A DNA stretch of 64,000 bases from Antedon mediterranea. Its lineage: Eukaryota; Echinodermata; Crinoidea; Comatulida; Antedonidae. The notes below the pieces were generated by a model. The model was not told where the DNA came from, made no database searches, and saw only the letters and a program-made list of their open reading frames with translations. This document shows positions 14,452 through 33,200 of the stretch, in pieces. Numbering within the stretch: position 1 is the stretch's first letter; each line of letters opens with the position of its first letter. The translations under genes and the position numbers were made by a program. The stretch lies in contig NC_092673.1 of NCBI RefSeq assembly GCF_964355755.1, positions 7,507,001 through 7,571,000 on the forward strand, in the 5' to 3' direction.

Positions 14452-16185
14452 AGAGCGTCATTTCGACGATCGAGCATTCTCTCTACTTCTACGGAGCGCC
14501 ATTTATGCCTTTATTTACTTACGAAATAGAAATAGAAATAGTACTACGGTAGCTGCTCCAGTGGACAAAATGTAGCACTAGTGGAGCGCAGTGATATAAA
14601 ATAGAAATAAGTCACTAATGTTAATATCTTTTCGTATGTTAATACACTGTGCTCAAGTGGACCCAATTTGGAGCCAGGGGAGCACAGTGATATAAAATAG
14701 AAATAAGTCACTGAATTTTAATATCTTTTCGTATGTTAATACACTATGCTCAAGTGGACCCAATTTGGCGCCAGGAGAGCACAGTGATATAAAATAGAAA
14801 TAAGTCACTGAATGTTAATATATTTTCGTATGTTAATACACTGTGTGCTCTGAAAGTGGACCTAATTTGGCGCCAGTGGAGCACAGTGATATGAAATAGA
14901 AATAAGTCATTGAATTTTAATATCTTTTCGTATGTTAATACACTGTGCTCAAGTGAACCCAATTTGGAGCCAGGGGAGCACAGTGATATAAAATAGAAAT
15001 AAGTCACTGAATTTTAATATCTGTTCGTATGTTATTACACTGTGCTCAAGTGGACCGAATTTGGAGCCAGGGGAGCACAGTGATATAAAATAGAAATAAG
15101 TCACTGAATGTTAATATCTTTTCGTATGTTAATACACTGTGTTCAAGAAGTGGACCCAATTTGGAGCCAGTGGAGCACACTGATAAAAAATAGAAATAAG
15201 TCACTGAATTTTAATATCTTTTCGTATGTTAATACACTGTGCTCAAGAAGTGGACCCAATTTGGAGCCAGTGGAGCACACTGATAATAAATAGAAATAAG
15301 TCACTGAATTTTAATATATTTTCGTATGTTAATACACTGTGCTCAACTGGACCCAATTTGGAGCTAGGGGAGCACAGTGATATAAAATAGAAATAAGTCA
15401 CTGAATTTTAATATCTTTTCGTATGTTAATACACTGTGCTCAAGTGGACCTAATTTGGCGCCAGTGGAGCACAGGGATATAAAATAGAAATAAGTCACTG
15501 AATTTTAATATATTTTCGTATGTTAATACACTGTGCTCACCACATGGACCCAATTTGGCGCGTGCGCCAGTGAGCACACAGTGCAGTGATATAAAATAGA
15601 AAAAAGTCAAAGTTAAGATATTAAAATTCAGTGACTTATTTCTATTTTATATCACTCTTCCTGTGCTCCCCTGGCTCCAAATTGGGTCCACTTGAGCACA
15701 GTGTATTAACATACGAAAAGATATTAAAAATCATTGACTTATTTCTATTTTATATCACTGCTCTCCTGGCTCCAAATTGGGTCCACTTGAGCACAGTGTA
15801 TTAACATACGAAAAGATATTAAAATTCAGTGATTTATTTCTATTTTATATCATTGTGCTCCCCTGGCTCCAAATTAGGTCCATTTGAGCACAGTGTTATT
15901 AACATACGAAAAGATATTAACATTCAGTGACTTATTTCTATTTTATATCACTGTGCTCCTCACTGGCGCCAAATTGTGTCCACTTGAGCACAGTGTATTT
16001 ACATACGAAAAGATATTAAAATTAGTGACTTATTTCTATTTTATATCACTGTGCTCCACCGGTGTTAAATTTGGTCCACTGGAGCAGTTACCGTAGTACT
16101 ATTTCTAATTTAGAAGTAAATAAAGGCATAAATGGCGCTCCGTAGAAGTAGAGAATGCTCGATCGTCGAAATTAATGACGCTCGT
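14452..16185. repeat. 1.7-kb foldback: about 98-bp tandem units inverted around 15610
   Basis: From about 14570 to 15600 roughly ten copies of a unit of about 98 bp run head to tail (gtcactgaattttaatatc recurs near 14708, 14806, 14906, 15003, 15102 and so on). From about 15620 to 16090 five copies run in the opposite orientation. Outside the arrays lies a unique inverted arm: gagcgtcat...cgacgatcgagcattctctac on the left and its complement on the right, including ggagcgccatttatgcc. Each unit has its own small hairpin (CACTGTGCTC ... GAGCACAGTG). The whole could fold into one long hairpin of up to about 0.6 kb per arm. Confidence 0.88.
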
Positions 16186-16312: not shown

Positions 16313-19300
16313 ATGACTTCTAGTGCTTTGAATAACAAATATGACTCTGTTGAGTTCCCATTTTGTGATGAGGTCACCAAATATGAAAAACTTACCAAAA
16401 TTGGTCAAGGAACATTTGGGTAAGAGAGAAGTCAATCCGGCGCCGCGACGACCTGTGTGTCGTGCCGTGGGCTTGACTCTGGGGAGAGAGGGACAATAAA
16501 CATGCTAGTAGGCCTAGCCTAGGCCTATATGCCTAGAGAGTTAGACATAAGACCGTTTTGGCCACAGGCTAATTTAGTTAGGTAATTAGCCTGGTTGCCT
16601 GTAGAGTCAAATGCAAATAGGCTAATGTAATAAGTGTAGGTAGGCCTAACCCTCTCACTAGCTAGCTAGGCTAGTAGTAGTACTAGTAGTAGGCCTACCT
16701 CTACTAGCGGAGTATGGTCGAAGCGGCCACCAGTTTAATAACGTAATTTGTATGGAACGCTATGCGTGCTTTAGCTTTGATGGTCGTTGTCAACGCCATG
16801 GCCTATAGCGAGTTGAGTTACAGCTAAAAGAGTATGGTCAAACCAATAAATATAAGCCAAAAATCATGTACTATCGAATCTTTATATTTTTATAATAATT
16901 AAGTTTGCCTGCCTGTACTATTGAACCTTTAATAATGTATGTACAGTATTGCCGAATCTTTATATCTCGTTTACATACTATCGAATCTTTATACAGTATG
17001 GCAATAATAATTTACATACGGTATTGCCGAATCTTTATATCTCGTTTACATACTATCGAATCTTTATACAGTATTGCATTAATAATTTACGTGTACGGTA
17101 TTGCCGAATCTTTATATCTCATTTACATACTATCGAATCTTTATACAGTATTGCATTAATAATTTACGTACGGTATTGCCGAATCTTTATATCTCATTTA
17201 CATACTATCGAATCTTTATACAGTATTACAATAATAATTTACGTACGGTATTGCCGAATATTTATATCTCATTTACATACTGTACTATCGAATCTTGGTT
17301 TTTATTATTAGTAATAGGGTGTGTTATACATTTAAGTGTTATTCCATTGTAATACATTGTTTGTGTTTTCAATAAAGCAACGTGGGGACGAATACGCCAG
17401 AAGAACGCGCACCTTCTTCAGCACTATTCCTGGCCGCAAGTCGAGTTATTAGCAGGAATTCGCATAATTAATTACCGTACCGTACAGACACTTGCATCTT
17501 ATTTTAGTATTTAAAACTCATTTTAAATTGAACAATATTTATATATTTGAAGGTATACAATAATGTAGAATATTAAATAAATAAATTGCTGTCTTGTAAT
17601 TAAATTATGATTGCGAACACTACTAGTTACTTTACTAATTAATTAATATACAATAACAAAAATAAATATATATATTTTGATATACTTTATTTAAAAAATA
17701 TATATAATTCCTATTAATAATTGGCTTATTATATATTATATCAATATACAATACAAACACCACAATGTATTTTATTGGCTTTATTAAAGTAACATATCAT
17801 TTAGAACAGTTAAAATAAGTAATCATCGATTCGCCTTTTCGTTTAAAAGAACATATCACAATCAATCTGTAAAAAAAGAAAATAAATTACATAATAATGT
17901 AGATTGTTATTTACGTCCGAGGTAAAGAAAACCTGTCGAAACAATGACAATCAAAGATTACAAAACAACGACAATCAAAGCACACACGGCGTTCCATAAA
18001 GATTACCGTTATTGAACTAGCGGCCGCTTTGGTTGGCGGCCGCTTCGACCGTAATTCCCTCTAGCTAGGGGCCAGGCTATATAATTATTTTTAATAGGCC
18101 TAGTCTAGTTAGGCCTATTAAAATATATTATAGGCTACTAGTCTAGGCCTATTATTATTAGTCTAGTAGGTCTATAAATTGTCAGACGATCGGGTCCATA
18201 TTCCAACCAAGACGATCGTGTGGACGTTCGGGCCCCAACATAATTAAATGATCGGAACCATTCTAAAATAAAAGAAAGACGATCGGGTCCATGAAAATTA
18301 GTAAGTTATAATTGTTCACCATAAAATAAGGTGTTCTTGATACAAATGTAATCAACTATGTAAAAGAATTATAAATTGTATATTATGTGTGTGTCAAATC
18401 TAGTTATTCTTGTTTGTAATACTAAACCATTTTGTAAAAAGGCCTGTGTCTGCTAGACGTTATACTTTTGGTAGCAAAAAAACGGCATAAGAGTAAAATA
18501 AAAGCACATCAATCAAGCCCACAACTGCTGCTACACAGGAAGCACAGTCAGTTGGTCCCATGTACAATCAATAATTTGGTTAAATACTGTAACAACACTC
18601 ATCCACTTGGTATGTAGTTGTGACAGTATGCCGAGAAGTCAATTAGAAACTAGAATGTATTTACAAAGGATATGTTCACTTGACTATCGGGCATTTTATT
18701 ATTATATAATTATAGCAAGTTGAAAACTCGGATCTACAGTAATTCCTAAACACTTTAATTCATAAACAGACAGCCAGTGCTTTTTAAGCTAGGCCTAGAC
18801 TAGTCGGAGTACTGTAGTGATTATTATTATTGTAGAATTACACTGTATTATCATTCATGTGGTTCTTTTATTTACTTTTTTTGCAGAGAGGTTTTCAAGG
18901 CTAGACACAAAAGAAACAGAAGAGTGGTTGCACTTAAGAAAGTTCTCATGGAAAATGAAAAAGAAGGAGTAAGTAATGACTGGTACTGTAGATACATGGG
19001 GGTAGAGGGAGAGAGGAGTCATGTTATTTTATGGGGGAGGGCTGAGATAACACTAAAACATTAACATTTGTCGTATTCGATTGGGAACTTTCGTTGTCAA
19101 TGTAAAGATTCGTTGAGTACTTTTTGTATTCAAATTGTAAATTTGTGCTCAACAGAAAGTCATTCGAATAGAAAACGTTGACAATGAAAGCTGTTTCGTT
19201 AAGAACAATCTCAACGCTCAAAATACTCTGTTAAAGAAGTACTCAACGGAAAAACTGTACTCAACGGTGAAAGTCTAAATCGAATACGACAATTATATGA

Positions 19301-21462
19301 CAATCAAAGTTTTGTGATTTGTATTGCCAAAACATTAAGCGTTTGAGACAGGATTGCCATAATCCATTAAAAATAATACTAAGCATTTATAAAGCGTTCT
19401 TAAATTGCTGTGTCTTAAGCCTTCTTGTCTACACTATCAAACTTTTTTATGTGACAAAAAAAATGTGATGTGCCCATATATGGACATAATGATGTCATAT
19501 CACTATCATATTTAAGCATATCACTACTTTTTTGTCAGACTAGGTTGATAGTGTAGACAGAGCTTTACAGCACTAATGACCACAAGTTTGTTTGAACTTT
19601 GTGGGATCATGCTCTGTGGTTGTGTTTTTAATATAATTTGTTCAGTGTAGGACAAGTCTATTTAAAAAAAAACCCAATTTAACCGTACAGAAGTAGATTG
19701 GGTGTACACTATTTCTCCTTGTGTATACTTTGAAAAACCAAGTACATCTTTTGAAATGAGAGGGGATTTTACAGTGTTCTACATTTCGCACTGTCCCCTA
19801 AGATAGATGAATTGGCACATTTGTTAAAACAAAAAATAAACCTCCAACCTACCAAATTGTTATACTATGTGTTATACAAATAGTATTTAATATTAATTAA
19901 TTATATTATTTGTTTATGTACAATTCTTACAGTTTCCGATTACAGCCTTAAGAGAAATCAAAATCTTGCAACTTCTCCGACACGAAAATGTGGTTCATCT
20001 AATTGAGATTTGCCGAACAAAAGGTACATGAAGTCGAGTGCAGTAACGTACTATTACTGTAAAGGATCTAAAGAGCACCACAACACAGCACTACAAATTT
20101 AAATGTGAAACAAATTTCATCTGTTTTAAGTTTAGTAATGGGTATAACACTGAAATAAATTCCTGTCATTTGATTGGACAATAAAACGCACTATTACACA
20201 ATCTTGCAATAAATATTCTCGCTTATGAAGAAAATAAAACACCAAAGCAGTCAATTAATTAAAAATTTCTTTAATGGAAGGCTTTTTGAAAATTATTGAA
20301 TCATTAATTATTAAACTTTGAAAGCCCATCATTTGTGTGACTGCTGTGTGTTGCTTTTTTATCAATTACAGTATATACATAAAACTTTTTATTTGCCGGA
20401 TATACATTACTTAAACCCGTTTTGAGTTTCCTCACTGAAAGTCAGTATAATTATACTACTTATAAGCCGATATGTTTGTGATAAATAGGCTGGCATAGCT
20501 TGCCATGGAGTACATACAGTAAGATATGTATGTATATCAGTAAAAAAGCGTTCAAAACCAGTTTCTGAATAATTCTGTTGCTACTTCTTTTTTTTTCAGC
20601 AACAGCATATAACCGTTTCAAGGGAAGTATCTTCTTAGTGTTTGAGTTCTGCGAACATGATTTAGCTGGGCTACTAAGCAATGCAAATGTCAAGTTCTCG
20701 CTTGGCGAGATAAAAGAGGTTGTGAAACAGCTTCTAAACGGACTCTACTATATCCATAGTAACAAAATACTACACAGAGACATGAAAGCAGCTAATATTC
20801 TTATAACAAAGGAAGGCAAGTTAAAATTAGCAGACTTTGGTCTTGCCAGGGCTTTCAGCCACGCTAAACCTAGCCAGCCGAACAGGTACACAAATAGAGT
20901 TGTCACATTATGGTACCGACCACCTGAGCTATTATTAGGTGAAAGAAATTACGGTCCACCTATAGATATGTGGGGTGCTGGGTGTATCATGGCTGAAATG
21001 TGGACGAGAAGTCCCATAATGCAAGGCAACACAGAGCAACATCAGTTGACCTTAATATCACATTTATGTGGGTCAATTTCGCCAGAAATATGGTCAGGCG
21101 TTGACAAACTTGAATTCTTTTCTAAACTTGAACTTCCAAAAGGTCACAAACGAAAAGTAAAAGAACGACTCAAAGCCTACGTGAAAGATCAGATTGCTTT
21201 GGACCTGATTGACAAACTGTTGTGGCTTGACCCGTCCAATCGTATTAATAGCGATGATGCCTTGAATCATGATTTCTTTTGGTTAGACCCGCTACCGTGT
21301 TCACTGCAAAAGATGTTGTCGTTACATACGCAATCCATGTTCGAGTTCCTTGCGCCACCACGGAGGCGAATCCAACAGCAAGCGCAGCATTCTGCTGTCC
21401 CACCACGAAGATCGGCAAACTTACCACAATCACATGATCAAACATTTGACAGAGTGTTTTGA
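16313..21462 (+). CDS. CDK9: Cyclin-dependent kinase 9 (P-TEFb catalytic subunit), copy A
   Basis: Four exons: 16313-16419, 18887-18968, 19933-20023 and 20600-21462 (with stop), 380 residues against 372 in human. With cyclin T, CDK9 phosphorylates the RNA polymerase II tail, DSIF and NELF to release paused polymerase in the nucleus. Visible motifs: SVEFPFCDEV at the start, glycine loop GQGTFGEV (31-38), Lys53 in VALKK, the PITALRE signature helix with Glu71, HRDMKAAN (Asp154), DFG (Asp172), and the activation-loop Thr191 in NRYTNRV, equivalent to human Thr186. The tail keeps FLAPPRRR and ends FDRVF, as in CDK9 generally. All splice sites are GT-AG. The start follows an in-frame context beginning MTSSALNN. 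Its upstream 127 bp separate it from a large foldback repeat. A second full copy lies at 25521-27275. Confidence 0.96.
16700..18063. mobile_element. 1.36-kb inverted-repeat element in CDK9-A intron 1
   Basis: The left end (ggtcgaagcggcc, then gtttaataacg, then tatggaacgc, then ctttgatggtcgttgt) matches the reverse complement of the right end at 17930-18063, giving arms of roughly 110-130 bp. The right arm has a small insertion with a duplicated gcggccgc. The interior holds an array of about 75-bp units (16870-17300) and AT-rich DNA. No ORF of note, so non-autonomous. Confidence 0.65.
16870..17300. repeat. Tandem repeat, about 75-bp unit
   Basis: gtattgccgaatctttatatctc recurs near 16946, 17021, 17098, 17172 and 17246. 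Each unit has two related half-units, one with gccgaatctttatatctc and one with atcgaatctttatacagt. Open frames across it are by-products of the repetition. Confidence 0.85.
19066..19296. mobile_element. Palindromic MITE-like element in CDK9-A intron 2
   Basis: The left end TTGTCGTATTCGATT with gaactttc is repeated inverted at the right end (gaaagtctaaatcgaatacgacaa). Inner words such as gttgagtactttttgta / gtactcaacgg and gttgtcaatg / cgttgacaatg also pair, so nearly the whole 230 bp is an imperfect palindrome. Confidence 0.65.
19417..19567. mobile_element. Palindromic 'tgtctacactatc' MITE, copy 1
   Basis: Inverted ends TTGTCTACACTATCAAAC and gttgatagtgtagaca enclose a palindromic core with gtgatgtgcccatatatgg and atgatgtcatatcact. 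Related copies lie at 33551-33719, 40819-40983 and 47900-48143. Confidence 0.75.
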
Positions 21463-24400
21463 GTCGGTTGATTATGTCTAGTATTGTAAGTACAGAAATT
21501 GTCTGTCTTATCATTCAATCGACGGAAAGTATTATAAATGGATTATAAAGAGATGGAAATGATGGTAATGTTTCTAGATCTATTGTTTTCTAAGGATTTT
21601 GTACTGTACAAAAGTTGTACTTAGAGTACGTAAAGCAGGGATTGTTTTATTTACCATAAGTAGGTCTTGCCCAAATGAAACCAACTTACCTCAGTTAGTA
21701 ACTGAACAGGCCCATTAATATCCAGGCATGGTGTGCTGTGCATTAGTGTGGTCACAAAGAAACACACCATGCACTTTGTATAATTTATAGCATGTTTGCA
21801 ACTCGAAACATCCTCAGACACAAACTATTAAATTATTCTTATTTTTAGTTAAACATTATTAATCATGTTATAACATAATAATACACAGTCTGTGTTTGTC
21901 AATAATAAATTGTACATTCCAAATCATTTTTTATGATAAAATGTAAAATGCTTCTCCAGTATCATAGCATATTCTATAATACAGGTGTCACATGTGATAC
22001 AGTTGCATTATGAGATATCCTATCGACGCACGTCATACTAACACTGTATGTGGAGATAAAGTACTGAAAATTTCTACTGTACATACAATGTTACCGTAAA
22101 TAGAAATCCGCAACTTATTGATCAATCAATATTTGACTTTCATTTTTATGAATTATGTTACTAACTCATATTAAATATGTTGATGATGATAACTGCAAAA
22201 TATGAATATTGTATTTATTACTCAGTAGTTTTTTATATTTAACCAAGTTATTGCTAAAATTTCCTTTTTTCACACAATAATGTAAATCAATTAAATGTAT
22301 TTCAATTTAAAATGTATTATGTCCACTGTACTGTAAATGGGTAATAACCCAAATATTAATATTTATAAAATATACAGTAATTTATTAATCCCATAATGTA
22401 TCATTCTGAAGACAATTGTAAAATTAAATTATGCATTATTACAATAAAGAGATGAACAACTTAATAATTTTAACTATTGTTTTTAATAATAATAATTACT
22501 GTATCATATGTGTATATATTTTTTTTTAATCATTATTTTTAATTGCACCACGTAATTGTTAAATATATATCTTGACACTTTCATTGTTTTTATAAAACAA
22601 TTTCCAAATTGCTGTAGTAAGTATTGTTTTGTATATATTTATTAAGTGAGGCGAGCACGCCATATTCAACCATGTCATTCAGTATTCTATAGTCAAGTTC
22701 GATTGTGCCAATAGAAAATGTTACTACCAGACACTCGGTCAACTGTGCTGGTAGACAATAATAAATGACATGCATGTTTGACCAATAGACAATTCCAATT
22801 ATTCTCCCTTTATTTTGTATAACATTTAGTTTAGACTTTTCTGGTACAGTAGTACACCCTAAACAAAACCCTAAAAAGTTCTACATTTGTTTATCACACA
22901 AGTAAAACTAATAGAAAATAACCAATGATATTACATTTTGTGAAAATTGTGTAAATAGTAAATGTTTGTAAGACAAATACCAATAAAAATATCCTATTTT
23001 AGGTACTGCAGTGGGCCTACTGGTATTATTGTACATGCATGAGCATTTTTTGGAAAGTGTCAAATTTACATGTAAAGTAAAGTGGAAAGCTTTTCCCGTC
23101 CGTGGAACAATTCATGTGCGAAGGTTTTGCAAGCTCTGAATTCCCTGCATTGAAAACTGATGCTTAAACGTCTCATTTGATTTTCACATTGAAATCGTTC
23201 GTTGTGTAAAAATTGTGGTTCGCATGTAAATTGTTCAGTTTTCATCGGCTATTAACATGATGAGTTGAGTGCAGTGGAGCAGATATTACAATCCACCTAC
23301 TTTTTCCACTTAAACGCAACAAAATGATGTTATTGTAAACACAGAGCAAATAATTTGACCAATCATTATGCAACAGCTCATCCACTGTCGCTTTGTGATA
23401 GGTCAACTTACTTGCAGTGTGCCTACGTTGTGTTTCATCCATATGGGAACCATGCTCAACAGTGTTGCCACCAAACGTTGCTCATTTCTAATTGGTCTAG
23501 TACATCACGGTGACCCCCTACTCTTCCAAAAAATGCACTGGGTTCCTACAACCATTGATGTGTACACTGGACCTCCATCTTCTGATTCACCAGATTTGTG
23601 AAGATATTTTAGCTATAATTTGTGGTACCTGCCTTAACCCACTCGACTTGTCTATGGTTGTAAGCCTGTCTGTGGATGGGTTTAGTTTTGTTGTAAACCT
23701 GTTCGTTAAAATGACTACAACGCATTATGGTTTAAAGATGTATTGTCCCCCTGAAATAATTTTTACAATTTTTTTTTATATGACATTTTAATGTCACATA
23801 ATAGTTATCCACTTTAAACAAAATATTTTATTTAAACAAAAATGATTTACCGGAAAACACTGCAATTTAAAGCAATAAATAGACAAATTGGCTGCCAGCC
23901 AATAGGGGTTTTAGTTGAATTTGGCCATTTATTTTGTCTTTTTATATGAGAAAACATTGAGTTTTTTTTTGTTTTTTTTTTTATTTTTGATGAAAGGGAT
24001 TAACTTAAAACTCCAAAATAACCTATTCAAAGTCTGATTTAATTAATCGTCATTTTTCATGTTTTTGGGGGACAATACATCTTTAGTAAAAGGTTTTGAA
24101 TGCTCCGCCTTCCAAACAAATAAACCACCTTATCAATTTCAACATTTTAATATCAACAACCAAACATTTTTAACTTCAGTTAAAACATTTTCTGTGCTTT
24201 AATATTTTTTTTTCTTGACTTTAAATACTTTATTTCAAAATAACATTTCACAGAAGAGTAGCTATAATCTATAAATAAATATGTTGATTTTCTCTATGTT
24301 TAAAAAAATCTTTTAACAAAAAACAAATTTCTGTAAAATATTGCATAGCAATTTGTAAGTTTTAAATTGAGTACACAATCAATTGGCTTTGTTACAATAT

Positions 24401-24839
24401 AACAATACAGTGCAATAATCAATGCATTTCACACCCTAATTAAACCTAAATAAAGTTTTCTTGTAATGTATTAAAAGCAAGGATCTCCTAATTGACAATG
24501 GCAATGTTTTCAGTGTCGATACTCAACTCTTTGAAAGTGTTAAAATAACAAATATAACATTTCTCCATAGTAATATTGCCCTATTCTATTTAATACAATA
24601 CAATGTGTGAATCTAAAAAAAAAATGTTTTATTCTAATATATATTGGTAATAGAAAACTTTTTTAGTAAACATCCATATTTCATAAATTAAATAATAATA
24701 TTAAAGTATAAATTCTAATGTGCTATTAAAAAACATTTTGCTGACTTATAGTAGTTAATCAGTATTATGGAATGGTATTAATCAGTACTAGGATTATATT
24801 GTAATCGATTGTAATCTAGCAGTATTGTAATAAAGACAA
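21463..24839. other. Intergenic DNA between the two CDK9 genes' 3' sides
   Basis: Contains the presumed 3' untranslated region of CDK9-A (AT-rich, with aataaa-type signals such as near 21900) and the MITE at 23732-24085. Open frames at 23242-23791 overlap on both strands and resemble no family. Otherwise AT-rich DNA with nothing recognised. Confidence 0.5.
23732..24085. mobile_element. MITE with TTAAAGATGTATTGTCCCCC ends, copy 1
   Basis: The left end is TTAAAGATGTATTGTCCCCC and the right end is its near-perfect inverse (gggggacaatacatcttta). The middle (tgtcacataatagttat, tatttaccgg-like block, ccattttattttgtcttttta) matches 48145-48495. A fragment of the inner block also occurs near 45195-45260. 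Confidence 0.8.
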
Positions 24840-25570
24840 ATTATGACCTTAAAATGCCAGGTCAAAGGACATGATACCATAAGATGGTTAATAAACCTAC
24901 GACCTTACAATGCCCAGTCAAAGGACATGACGATACCATATGGTTAATAACCTATGACCTTAAAATACTTGGTCAAAGACATGACAATACCATAAGATGG
25001 TTATAGCTTTAGAATACCTCGTCAAAGGACATGACAATACAATTAAATGGCAAAGGTGGTTATGAACTATGACTTTAAAATACCCGGTCAAATGACATGT
25101 CAAGACCATGAGATAGTAAAGGTGGTTCTGAACTATGACCATAAAATACCTGGTCAAAGGACATGTCAAGACCATGAGATGGTAAAGGTGGTTATGGACT
25201 ATGACCTTAAAATACCCGGTCAAAGGACATGTCAAGACCATGAGGTGGTAAAGGTGGTTATGGACTATGACCTTAAAATACCCAGTCAAAGGACATGTCA
25301 AGACCATGAGGTGGTAAAGGTGGTTATGGACTATGACCTTAAAATACCCGGTCAAAGGACATGTCAAGACCATAAGATGGTTATAGCTTTAGAATACCTC
25401 GTCAAAGGACATGACAATACAATTAAATGGCAAAGGTGGTTCTGAACTATGACCTTAAAATACCCATTCAAATGACAGTTCAATACCATGAGATGGTAAA
25501 GGTGGTTATGGACTATGACCTTAAAATACCCGGTCAAAGGACATGTCAAGACCATGAGGTGGTTTCTTTA
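24840..25570. repeat. 66-bp tandem array that includes the 3' end of CDK9-B
   Basis: About 12 copies of a 66-bp unit. The conserved word ggtcaaaggacatg (or close variants) recurs near 24861, 24913, 24967, 25018, 25083, 25149, 25215, 25281, 25347, 25398, 25464 and 25530. The unit nearest the gene is the coding end of CDK9-B itself: on the minus strand it encodes PPHGLDMSFDRVF and the stop, followed by about 27 bp of 3' flank. The leftmost units are shorter and more diverged. A variant pair (gttatagctttagaatacctcg) near 25000 and 25380 suggests a higher-order duplication of about 380 bp. Confidence 0.92.
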
Positions 25571-27275
25571 TTTTCTGTTGGTTCTGCTGTTGACGTCTAC
25601 GATTTAGAGCAGAGAATTCAAACATTGATTGTGTATGCAACGTAAGCATTTTGGCAAAAGAGCGTGGCATTGGATCAACCCAGAAGAAATCATGATTGAG
25701 GGCATCATCACTGTTGAGACGCTTTGCTGGATCTATTGCTAATAATTTATCGATCAAATCTAACGCAATCTGATCACGAACATATAGATGTAATCTTTCT
25801 TTTACTTTGCGTCGGAGATCTGGTTGCAGTTTTATCTTAGAGTAAAATTCTAGTTGTTCAACTTCAGGCCAAACTTCTGGTGTAATAGAACCACACAAAT
25901 TAGATATGAGGTTGAGTTGATGTTGTTCTGTGCTTCCTTGCATTATTGGTGTGCGTGTCCACATCTCAGCCATAATGCACCCTGCACCCCACAGATCAAT
26001 GGGTGGTCCGTAATTTCTCTCTCCGAGTAAAAGCTCGGGTGGGCGGTACCAGAGCGTGACAACGCGATTTGTATACCTATTAGGCTGATTCGGTCTGGCG
26101 AGGCTGAATGGTCGAGCAAGTCCAAAGTCTGCTAATTTCAAATTTCCTGTCTGAGTGATTAAAATGTTTGCTGTTTTCATGTCACGATGTAGAATTTTAT
26201 TACTATGTATATAATACATGCCATTCAAAAGCTGCTTCATAACTTCTTTGATCTCAGGCAATGAAAACTTGACTTGAGGGTTGCTAAGTAACCCAGCCAG
26301 ATCATGGTCGCAGAACTCAAATACGAGGTAGATACTAGTATTGCAATGGTCGTTTGATGTTCCTGTAAAAAATATATCAAAAGAAGCCAAATTTAATGGG
26401 CACAAAAAAAGTTGTATTAAAAGTTATAATAATTGGAATACACTGTACCTTTGGCTCTGCATATCTCTATCAAATGCGTAATATTTTCATGACGTAATTG
26501 TTGAAGAATCTTTATCTCTCTTAAAGCTGTGATTGGAAACTGTTGGGAGAAATAAATGATTAAACACATTTACCATATTCATTTGAATGCGGCGCTTATT
26601 GTTCAGGAGGGTTTTTAGGAGCGTGTTTATTCGGATGAGGCGTTTATTCAAAGCAGAGAGTTTTTATTCAAATAAATATAATAGTAACAAATTGCCATAG
26701 CACGTGTTATTAGGCTAGACCTGGGCCTATAATGTACTTTAAATTTACATTTAATTTGATTGAAAATACAACACAAAATATCATTATTACATGGAGCTAT
26801 AATATTTTATAGTACAATCAATGTCCGTAATTATTATTATTAACAATGTGAGATTTTTAGTCTCACCCCTTCCTTTTCATTGGCCATTAACACTTTTTTC
26901 AGTGCTACAATCTTTCTCGACTTTTTGTCTCGTGCTTTGAAAACTTCTCTGAAAGACAAAAATAATGCTAATAAATTATACTATAGTATGTAGAGTACAA
27001 CAGGGCTGAACAGTAGAGAGAGGGCTAGCAGAAGTGAGTATACAGTAGTTGAGATCAAACTATGCAATATACTGTAACCTAGCTAGGCCTAATACCGGTT
27101 CCTCTTCCTGGGAATTTCAGTATACCGACTGGGCTGTATAGTGCTGATTTGTGAACGAATTTTCTGCTTACCCAAAAGTTCCTTGGCCAATTTTCAATAT
27201 TTTTTCGTACTTTTTTACATCATCACAGAATGGAAACTCCAATGAATCAATCTTGCTGGCTGAATTTGAAGCCAT
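25521..27275 (-). CDS. CDK9: Cyclin-dependent kinase 9, copy B
   Basis: Four exons on the minus strand: 27275-27172, 26948-26867, 26539-26449 and 26362-25521, giving 372 residues, the human length. Exons 2 and 3 have the same sizes (82 and 91 bp) and phases as in copy A, so this is a DNA-level duplicate or an ancient paralogue, not a retrocopy. Complete kinase: GQGTFGEVFKA, VALKKVL, PITALRE, HRDMKTAN, DFGLARPF, NRYTNRV activation loop, APE-like PPELLLGE. It differs from copy A by SLEFPFCDDV, an altered tail (SALNRRRQQQ replaces the conserved LAPPRRR) and HGLDMSFDRVF at the end. The final codons are one unit of a downstream tandem array. It faces copy A tail to tail and shares a 218-bp intergenic spacer with TLS1. 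Both copies look functional. Confidence 0.95.
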
Positions 27276-27493
27276 TGATTAGTTTAAAGTATGTCAAGTT
27301 GAACTATAGGTCGTTTTAAAATAGAGAAAATAGATACAAAAAACAACTTTTTGTTTCTCAGCTCTCAGCACACTTATGTCACCTATCGACGACGTACTAT
27401 GTTGTTGTTTTACTTAGTCTTTCAATCCAGATCCTTCAACTTTGGTTTGTTTCATGGTGCTGAGGAGACTACCATACTTCCGAAAAAATAAAG
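27276..27493. promoter_or_regulatory. Presumed bidirectional promoter, CDK9-B / TLS1
   Basis: Only 218 bp lie between the start codon of CDK9-B (27275, minus) and that of TLS1 (27494, plus), so both 5' untranslated regions and core promoters must fit here or overlap upstream coding DNA. No clear TATA box was identified. The role is inferred from arrangement alone. Confidence 0.6.
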
Positions 27494-30191
27494 ATGGCGT
27501 TCGCATCATCAAAACGTCGTAAACAATTTCGTCGAAGAAAAGCGTCAAGTTCTGATGATGAAACAGAGACTGAAGATATAAGGTAATCATTAATTGATAT
27601 ATAAAGTAATACAAAATATGTCAATATTATTGAATGTGCCAAATACTATAATCTGTACTCTAAATTTAGCTTTTTAATCCTAGGCCACCATCAATGAGTT
27701 TTACCGTTTCTTGGCTTGTGATAACGTCTATTACGAGGGTGTTCAATGATTTTTTGCCCGTCCAGATTCATGTTGTGTCAATGGTTCCGTATAGGACTAG
27801 GCCTAGCATTGTAGCTATGATTTCTGCTAATTTCGACCGGAGGTTAATTATCATAGCCAATTCAGTTTTACATTTTACAACTTATAACCTTTTTAATATC
27901 ATTGACATTGTTGTCAACTGTCTGTGTGCATATTTCGATTATTTGATTAGGCCTAGCCTAGCTAGGTTAATAATATAATAAAATAATTATTATAATGCGA
28001 GTTGTACACAAAAATAATGTGGTGATCTTATGTATTGATAACATTATTATTTTATATAATTGAATACAGTATGTACAGTATTGTATTACTGTATTTTAAC
28101 TAAGAAATAATCGTATTGTTCATACTGTACTGTCTGTATTGTACCTCCAACCTGTGTGTGTTGAGCCCCTTGACAGCGAATTTATTTCGCTTTTTGGTTA
28201 ACCAGTCATTTAGATTTTGAATTTATTTTCTTATTTGTTTTGTTGTTCTGACGAAATAAATGTAATTGTAAGGTAGGAAACGTAAAATATAGTATTGCAA
28301 CAGTCTTGCGATTCATGTACAACAGATTTGTTTGTGGGTTTTTTGACAATAATAAATTCACCATTTCTTTCACATAGTATTTTTTTGTCAACATAGGTCA
28401 ATACTCGAGGAAGCTAAAGAAGTTCAAAAATTCAGAGAAAGACCGAACGGTGTAAGGTACAGTATGGCATCATTCTCTTGATCAAATTGAATTTATTTGG
28501 TTAAATCATTGCCTGACATATCATGAATCATGCATTTAATAACAATTTATATACAGTCAGATTCAGATTCAGATTCAGATAATATTTATTTAGAATTAGA
28601 TAATAATGAATGAATATATACAAAATAGAAAAAAGATATTAAAGTGAACATAGATAAAGCAGTAATTGGTAGTCATTATTATCATGGATCCCTTCTAGAA
28701 GTTAAAAACTTGTCTCGTAGGGACCCACAACAAAACACATTACTAAAAAAATAAAAATAACCTAGAATATATAATTATATAATTTAGGATAAAAAATTAC
28801 AGTATAATAACATAACTAACATCTTCTTTATAAAAATTATTTAAATTATATTTCAATAGTTTCATGATAATTATAAATGAAACTAGATTTAATTCGTCAC
28901 TATGACGAATTATAGGTTATATGCATTGATAATTAAAATAAAGATAATTTATTTTTAAAAGATATTTTGATTCATTGATTTTCTCAGATTCTTTAAATAA
29001 TATATAATATATGATAGGACCTTGCTAACGCGAATACAATAGCCGGTATCACAATCCGATCAAAGATCCCTCTGCGTATAATGTCATAAACCACATTTGC
29101 TGTTACATAATAATAAAGACATAAGTTATTTTTTATCTAGATTTCATTATAAATCATGTGTATAATATATACACTAAGAAATAAATTTGAACAAACAATA
29201 CGGATAATAAAAAAAAAATTTATTTCGTTTCCCAAGGTGAGACTCGATCTCGGTACCTTGAGTGCCATAGACACGAGCACACACCACCGAGCCATACACA
29301 ACTGACTAAAAATTGTAGAAAAATTCCTCCGTGTATTTACTATGCAGTAACCACTTTGGTGCAGATAGATTATTACATACCGCAATGAATTATAATTTTT
29401 TACTATGATGACATCTCTAAAAATGTACAAAAATGATGCACTGTCAAACTATATACTTTTAACTTTAATATATGAACTTCTTAAGGAAGAAAGTTAACGT
29501 TAAGTTTGTTATTTTGGCCTAAGAAAATGTTATAATTTGTTTGATTGTCGAAATTAATTTTGTTGAATTTAATATGCCATTAATGATGACTTAATCAACT
29601 TTTGTTCTTCTAATTTCATAATAAATCATACATATGATACATACACTTCAAGAAAATTAAATAAAAAATAGGTGTTCCCGAGCATTCTAACGATATATAT
29701 TAATTTTAAAATTTAGCATATTTTCACCATTTTGTTAACTTACACGTGCGTAGCCCGTCACTTTTGACGTGCTCGTATAACGCTGTTTCGCGTTGAAAAG
29801 TGAATAAAATATGATGATATTATTAAAGAAAGGTTATACAACAGTAATCAGACACAAACAGTGCGCATTAACGTTTGACAATTTTCAACATTTTAAGCGC
29901 GCGTACGCATGCGTTATATGCGCTACGCACGTAATTGTATTGCCATATGATGAAATATGACCTGAAATTTATGAGTACCAAATTTTGTTTAAAAGTGATT
30001 CATGTTTGTGAAGATATGATTACAAACGTGATTTCGTTAAATCGCGCGTAGACCGCGTAATTTTTGATTGCGCACCGTGAAAACATAACCACATCGATTC
30101 CTGGCCATAAGGAATATACTCTGAAAAATTGACTTAGATAGATAAAACCGATGCCAAGATAATTGACGGACAAATAGTGCTAAGGAAAGAA

Positions 30192-30234
<43 letters not shown>

Positions 30235-33200
30235 AGATTCTGACAGAATCAAGAGGTTATATGCATATCATGCATATAACCTAATAACTACCGATATTGG
30301 TAAATGAAAAAAAAAATATGTATACATAAATTATAATTCCAGTATATATATAGTATACTATATATACATTATATATAGTATAGATTAAAGATTGCAATAA
30401 TAAACAACAACTATATTTTGTGTAAGACATAAATAGTATATGAGTATAAATAATGATAATAAGCATATTAACTAAGCAGTATAATATTTAGATATATAAT
30501 GATTCTTTAACTTTTTTCGGAAAGTAAATAATGATATTGACTGATATAGTTATAAAAAATTTAGTTTTAGTAAGTCCAGCAAAAGGAATGTTTAAATGAG
30601 AAGTTCTTAAATTGTAATTGTGAAATTTGGTACGTTTACAGAGCATATCAATCATAGAAATAGGAAGTTGGTTTTTAAAATAATTAAACATAAAACTGGC
30701 AACTTGAACATTGTGGATATCCGTTAATTTTAATATACCAAGACGTTTAAAAAGGGGTTCAGATGAGGTTCTATATGGTGAAAAAGTAATAATTCTAGCT
30801 GCACGTTTTTGTAATTTAGTTAATCTAGCAATATTAGAAGAGTAATCTGCAGCCCAAATAATGTTACAATACTGGAAATAAGGAAGTACAAGTGTGTTAT
30901 AAAGAGAAATTAAAATATTTAGAGGGAAGAAGTGCTTAAGTCTGTTAATAATACTAATAGATCTTGATATTTTTTTCGAAACGTAATTTTGATGACTGGT
31001 CCATTTGAGGTTTTCATGAATATATACACCTAAAAAAAGTGTTTCAGTTTTGCGTTCAATTTGAATTCCGTCAAGAAGTATATTTAGGTCATCAACTTTT
31101 AGTTTACGTTGAGAATTGTGAAAAATTAAATAATTTGTTTTAAGAGTATTAATAAGTAATTTGTTTGAAATAAACCAGTCACAAAATTTTGTTAATTCAT
31201 CATTGAATGTAGTAAATAATAAATCAATATTGGAATTAGAGTAAAATAAGGTGGTGTCGTCGGCGAAGGATATTACTTGCAATTTGTTACTGACATTAGC
31301 CAGATCATTAACATAAATAAGGAAGAGCAATGGCCCAAGCACAGATCCCTGTGGCACTCCGCAAGTAATATCCATCGTCGACGATGTACAAGATCCTAAT
31401 GCAACATATTGTTTTCTATCTTTCAAATAACTATTAAACCAATTCAATGAAATACCTCTAATTCCATAGCACTCAAGTTTTTTAATTAAATTATCGTGAT
31501 TAATAACATCGAAGGCCTTTGAAAGATCAATAAATAAACTTAATAAATTTTCTTTTGATTCAAATGAATTTGTAATATTATTAATAAGATCTAAAACGGC
31601 ATGGGATGTAGAGTGATTTTTTCGAAAACCATATTGGCGTTTATTAAGTATATCAAATTTTGTGAGATAATCAGAAAGTTTAGAATACATGAGTTTTTCA
31701 ATAATTTTGGAAAACACTGAAAGTAGTGATATTGGCCGGTAATTAGATAATTGACTTCGTTCACCTTTCTTGAAAATGGGCACAACTTTAGCTAGTTTTA
31801 AGTGTGTTGGAAAAGTGCCAGATAAAAAAGATGAATTTATACAATGGGTAAGTTGGTGGATGATTAAGGGAGATACAGATTTTAAGACACGAGCAGTAAT
31901 ACCGTCAGATCCAGACCCTTTATAACAATTATAATGCAAGATACTGACATTTTAGTATCAAATTGTCTTTTGTACATGTCTTTTATATTCACTTTATTAC
32001 AATATTTTGTCCCAAAAAAGAGCAGCAACTTTCATTTATCATGGCACTCTAAACTTTGACCTGGTCATCTTTTACCTTAGCTAACTAGTACTGTTAGTGT
32101 AAGCCTTCAGTATAGAAGACAATATAATAATATAAATAAGGTTGGGTGTAAATTGTTCAAAGTAAAGTAGTTTATTTTTTTAAGTATTGTTTTATTGGTT
32201 TTTGAATGTTTTCAGCTCGGCAGCATTAGCGACAGGGAAAAAACTGTCAAAAGAACAAGAAGTTAGCAATGTAAGTACCATATTGAATTGTTATACTGTA
32301 TTATGGTTCAATGCATTACAAATAGCCATACACTATATATCAAGTTTTGTTGGTTCTATGATGCATACTTACTGTATGGACTTTTCTCTTTTCAATATCT
32401 TTTTTGTCGTTTTTATATGGTGTTGTTTTGTTTGTAATATCACAAACTTGTGTAAAAACAATCTATATTGATTGAACGAGTTGTACTGCAAATTAGTCTT
32501 ACTGTATGTATAAATAAAGTTTATATATAAGGAAGCCCTCCACATCACCTGGAGTAAACCTTCTTTGAACAAACAAATCTATAACTTAGGCTTAGTTTGC
32601 CATATGATTGATTTGTTGCCTACGTTCCTTGTGGTTTTATCATGCTAATTACTTCCTCATTTACATACTCTACAATCTGTCCTATTGGTATATAATAAGT
32701 ATTCTAGGCGTTGTTTTCTGTTCTGGTGATGAGAATAGTTTTAAGGCAGTTTGCCTATTTATCAAATGCCTAACAATCGTTGTTTTAACTCAAAAGTTCA
32801 TGATTTATCTAACAAGTACTGTATACTAAATCAAAATATGTTTTATATTTTAAGGATGATCCATTTAAATTAAAGACAGGGGGATTGGTTGACTACCAAG
32901 AGATCAAAGACAGGAACAGGGACAGGTACTGTATGTTAATGTTAAGTTTGGCTAAAATTAAGAAAACCAAAACTACATATATAAAGATTCACTTAGCTGA
33001 GTGAATCTGGGTGAAGTGACCTACTATCAAATATTATTTTAATATTTTCTCAAACATAGTTGGCGCCTCTGACCTTCTGTGCCTAATACTGTAATAAATA
33101 CATTATTTAACTGGCTTTATATATAAGTTTGTTTGTTTTCACGATACTTTACTTTGTGATTGAACCTTTGTTTCTTTATTACCTTTTCTAATTTCTCAAT

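Follow-up and report, generated by a model that had tools for sequence, protein, structure and literature searches.

The locus considered here lies in a 64,000-nucleotide stretch of the Antedon mediterranea genome, referred to below as the window, and comprises two CDK9-type kinase genes arranged tail to tail (16313-27275) with identical intron positions. Their exons are listed below, with the strand in brackets.

27172-27275 (-): CDK9-B exon 1, carrying the start codon
26867-26948 (-): CDK9-B exon 2
26449-26539 (-): CDK9-B exon 3, with canonical splice sites
25521-26362 (-): CDK9-B exon 4 (last), ending in the first array unit, u1; stop codon TAA at 25523-25521
16313-16419, 18887-18968 and 19933-20023 (+): CDK9-A exons before the last
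20600-21462 (+): CDK9-A last exon, ending in FDRVF and a stop, without a terminal array

CDK9-B is intact, with four exons, canonical splice sites and a product of 372 aa. It reads as a CDK9-type kinase, in which PITALRE, HRDMK and DFG are all present, and its best PDB match is human CDK9 (E 2e-129). One CDK9 is usually ascribed to most animals; in this genome, the close CDK9 matches are CDK9-A and CDK9-B only, and the next best match covers part of the kinase at 53% identity. The two proteins share 75% identity, with a dN of 0.19 and synonymous change that is saturated (NG86 returns no dS value), indicating that the duplication is old and that both copies look constrained. CDK9-B is the more diverged copy, as its last exon scores lower against human CDK9 than that of CDK9-A (434 vs 478 bits).

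The window holds other repeats as well. A 97-bp array (14554-15558) is followed by a second one (15615-16086) in which this unit is inverted; the pair (14554-16086) stops some 230 bp before the start codon of CDK9-A. The 97-bp unit holds an inverted repeat (GAGCACAGTG...CACTGTGCTC). Across the genome it is matched at least 320 times, frequently in neighbouring arrays that lie on both strands; it belongs to a family of dispersed arrays and may be a mobile element. Two short arrays with a 68-69-bp unit (1234-1474 and 2086-2277) share the GAGCACAGTG / GCACTGTGC motif with this family. In addition, a 75-bp array occupies 16929-17281 in the first intron of CDK9-A, and a 487-aa open frame resembling a LINE-type reverse transcriptase lies about 3 kb upstream of CDK9-B (30488-31951, minus strand).

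The 3' end of CDK9-B carries an array of 12 tandem units (25563-24827, minus strand), which starts inside the last exon and continues into the presumed 3'UTR. On the plus strand, TRF reports it as 24842-24994 (period 56) and 25009-25564 (periods 66/132), with scores of up to 713. Unit u1 (25562-25497) reads CCA CCT CAT GGT CTT GAC ATG TCC TTT GAC CGG GTA TTT TAA, followed by 24 bp, and encodes PPHGLDMSFDRVF, the last 13 residues of CDK9-B, before the stop. A sequence-only reading of this DNA had proposed that the gene-proximal unit contains the terminal codons of CDK9-B, the stop and some 3' flank, with about eleven further copies downstream. The sequence of u1 confirms the former, and the latter is borne out by the 11 units that come after u1, in the position that it gave. 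The proposed unit length of 66 bp applies to seven of the 12 units (u1, u2 and u4-u8) and fails for u3 and u9, which are 50 bp long, and for u10, u11 and u12 (57, 56 and about 61 bp). The units, all on the minus strand, are as follows.

25497-25562 (-): u1, coding unit, PPHGLDMSFDRVF, stop and 24-bp spacer, 66 bp
25431-25496 (-): u2, 66 bp, would encode PSHGIELSFEWVF
25381-25430 (-): u3, 50 bp, would encode PFNCIVMSFDEVF; same sequence as u9
25315-25380 (-): u4, 66 bp, recombinant with a u10-like head and a u1/u6-like tail, breakpoint 25373-25369
25249-25314 (-): u5, 66 bp, FDWVF
25183-25248 (-): u6, 66 bp, same sequence as the coding unit u1
25117-25182 (-): u7, 66 bp, FDQVF, stop changed to TAT, frame continuing to the u8 stop
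25051-25116 (-): u8, 66 bp, FDRVF
25001-25050 (-): u9, 50 bp, same sequence as u3
24944-25000 (-): u10, 57 bp, tail codons with a 1-bp deletion
24888-24943 (-): u11, 56 bp, FDWAL
24827-24887 (-): u12, about 61 bp, FDLAF; boundary with the unique flank approximate

Judged by its sequence, the coding unit belongs to the array. A relic of the same coding tail is present in all 12 units, and the stop at the end of this relic is kept in 10 of them, the exceptions being u7, where the stop is lost and read-through to the u8 stop would add 22 residues, and u10 with its deletion. The units differ from one another by up to 29%, and the distal three are 18-25% diverged from the coding unit. The spacer is likewise of two types, TTTATTAA in distal and ACCACCTTTA in proximal units. 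With 12 units of 50-66 bp and TRF periods of 56 and 66, the array falls within the range of roughly 10-100 bp per tandem unit that is expected of a minisatellite.

Exchange among units is recorded most directly in u4, which is a clean mosaic. Unit u3 and the head of u4 are identical over 73 bp to u9 and the head of u10, the remainder of u4 matches both u1 and u6 perfectly over 62 bp, and the two matches overlap at 25373-25369, within the part homologous to the coding tail. Across u3 and u4, the informative sites show a single switch from the u9+u10 type (15 sites) to the u6 type (8 sites), a pattern obtained in 0 of 10,000 permutations. Either unequal crossover between u10-type and coding-type units or conversion would account for this mosaic. 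Similarly, u1 with the head of u2 is identical over 79 bp to u6 with the head of u7, whereas u1 differs from the adjacent u2 at 10 of 66 sites. As this identity extends across the 24-bp noncoding spacer, it cannot be put down to selection on the protein. Simultaneous amplification followed by independent drift was also considered and is unlikely, given pairwise differences of 0 to 10 among the 66-mers; a one-time amplification with drift does not easily yield the 79-bp identity of u1 and u6 beside the difference between u1 and u2. The u4 mosaic and the identities u1 = u6 and u3 = u9 thus match the unit exchange or conversion of minisatellites. They also support the unequal exchange proposed in the sequence-only reading, as a probable mechanism acting between units that include those identical to the coding unit. 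Divergence rises only weakly with distance from the gene (Mantel r 0.29, p 0.03; Spearman coefficient from u1 0.34, p 0.31), because u2, u3 and u9 break the pattern, and this speaks against an array that grew out of the gene end.

The downstream units might act as a donor reservoir, with conversion repeatedly rewriting or repairing the CDK9-B C-terminus. The identity of u1 and u6, spacer included, next to a dissimilar u2 would fit such transfers, as would the u4 breakpoint, which falls in sequence homologous to the tail codons. However, the direction of transfer between u1 and u6 is not readable from a single assembly, and FDRVF stands directly before the stop in only three of the 11 downstream units (u4, u6 and u8). 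The other eight would end in FDWVF, FEWVF, FDEVF (twice), FDQVF with a 22-residue extension, LTKYFKVIGY, FDWAL and FDLAF, so that most transfers into the gene would alter the conserved ending. A donor reservoir is hence improbable in our judgement. We give similarly little credence to its wider form, in which a kinase terminus embedded in a self-homogenising array is re-supplied from 3'UTR copies and vice versa, in concerted evolution with its own untranslated tail. The earlier suggestion that copies could restore each other is accordingly weak, as eight of the 11 downstream units would replace the ending FDRVF.

It is fair to infer that exchange could rewrite the CDK9-B C-terminus. All 12 units, if coding, would close the frame within a few dozen codons, and nearly all transfers would leave the protein near its present length because the unit carries a stop. 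In human CDK9, F336 and E337, deeper in the tail, shape the ATP site (PMC6170502). Their counterparts are conserved in CDK9-A and CDK9-B (SMFEF vs SMFEY in the alignments), at sites that precede the array. A literature search found no paper on a role of the last five residues of CDK9, and a search on the motif FERVF returned nothing relevant. For CDK9-B, the array would appear to be a hazard that is tolerated rather than a reservoir for repair.

The ancestry of the unit can be approached through the protein ending, which is FDRVF in CDK9-A, FERVF in human CDK9 and FDRVF in CDK9-B. The chance expectation for F(D/E)RVF plus a stop over the whole stretch and both strands is about 6e-5. Searches of the 354-Mb genome with 951-bp, 251-bp and 33-bp queries (the last allowing up to 3 mismatches) found no array copies elsewhere; such searches skip very common words, and weak copies may escape them. 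As a positive control, the same kind of search gave at least 320 matches for the 97-bp array of the same window, which indicates that the method does detect dispersed arrays. Within this sensitivity, the array is found at one locus only, as expected of a minisatellite. An origin from a dispersed repeat or transposon was rejected, since copies were found at the CDK9-B locus only and the control worked. Further, the CDK9-A end showed no array homology beyond 12-bp chance matches.

The shared ending, its low chance expectation, the single locus and the tail relics in all units make the direction from gene to array much the likelier one on present sequence. The claim that the coding end is ancestral and that the array grew out of the CDK9-B end is thereby supported by paralogue A and human CDK9, and it gains further support from the 18-25% divergence of the distal units. 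In the reverse order, a local or dispersed repeat would have existed 3' of the gene, and the CDK9-B frame would have been truncated into it, capturing its C-terminus. In favour of this order, the eight residues with which the unit opens, PPHGLDMS, lack an obvious equivalent in both paralogue A and human CDK9. However, it needs F(D/E)RVF plus a stop to be rightly placed by chance, and it meets no array copies at other loci; we regard it as extremely improbable. The original duplication junction is unreadable because the distal spacer differs from the proximal one. A 7-bp match, ACCACCT, occurs at the unit start and in the proximal spacer, and we conjecture that it offered a route to the 66-bp form of the unit.

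The units beyond u1 give few signs of function. In the gene frame, variation among noncoding units is not concentrated at third positions. Other open frames run through the array (142 aa, 24960-25388, minus strand; 132 aa, 25047-25445, plus strand), and long open frames are expected from a 66-bp period, since 66 is divisible by three. The idea that the array codes for protein in another frame was rejected, as the 15 variable columns fall 8/2/5 over the three positions, which is not significant allowing for six frames. The array could instead be a functional 3'UTR element under selection, such as an RNA structure or a cluster of binding sites. Past the CDK9-B stop, the first AATAAA (24628-24633, minus strand; a consensus match only) is reached only beyond the array, which is therefore probably in the 3'UTR, and the RNA fold of the array is somewhat more stable than shuffled sequence (z -2.4, with only 20 shuffles). 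Against such an element, Rfam gave no match in 20000-28000, and the units vary in length and in up to 29% of their sequence. Such arrays are also common in this genome: seven comparable ones occur in the 64-kb window and four in 59 kb around other kinase exons, or about one per 11 kb. At this density some must begin at gene ends, so that no functional explanation is needed, and we hold a selected 3'UTR element to be unlikely. The array is probably neutral, serving no evident purpose.

Taken together, these observations make it highly probable that the array is a single-locus minisatellite seeded by the CDK9-B gene end and partly homogenised by exchange, with selection on u1. It would have started when the 3' end of the last exon, with tail codons, stop and a piece of 3' flank, was duplicated in tandem, and would then have grown and been partly homogenised through unequal exchange or conversion between units. 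Since almost all units contain a stop, the protein C-terminus would be supplied by the unit that directly follows the unique coding sequence, and the later ones would fall in the presumed 3'UTR and drift. Purifying selection for F(D/E)RVF would then act on the gene-proximal unit only. Such a history would make the locus a clear example of how the end of a gene can give rise to a minisatellite without disruption of the gene, in which growth of the array leaves protein length unchanged because the unit includes the stop. It would also illustrate how an array can expose a conserved protein ending to exchange with decaying copies.

Several known systems share parts of this arrangement. In D4Z4/DUX4, only the unit beside the unique flank forms a complete functional gene end, and the CDK9-B array is alike in that only the unit adjoining unique sequence gives a complete gene end. 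However, a D4Z4 unit spans kilobases and includes an entire reading frame, in contrast to 13 codons and a stop per CDK9-B unit. Borrelia vlsE consists of an expressed copy plus silent cassettes, and both systems place one expressed copy beside tandem related silent copies. Unlike vlsE, CDK9-B is an intracellular kinase with a conserved ending, and neither diversifying selection nor sequence transfer into its expressed copy is in evidence. The CEL VNTR is likewise a tandem array in a last exon, that of carboxyl ester lipase, with a unit length divisible by three and array changes that can alter the C-terminus (PMC8692231). Its repeats are translated, whereas in CDK9-B nearly every unit has a stop and the first alone is translated. 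No clear case of repeats spanning a stop codon was found in the literature searched. Human minisatellites such as MS32, MS31A, MS205 and D1S80 (PMC3356730) and the CDK9-B array have in common single-locus units of tens of bp, mosaic units and block duplications; the array differs from them in that its unit probably derives from the end of a protein-coding gene and in that its first copy still codes.
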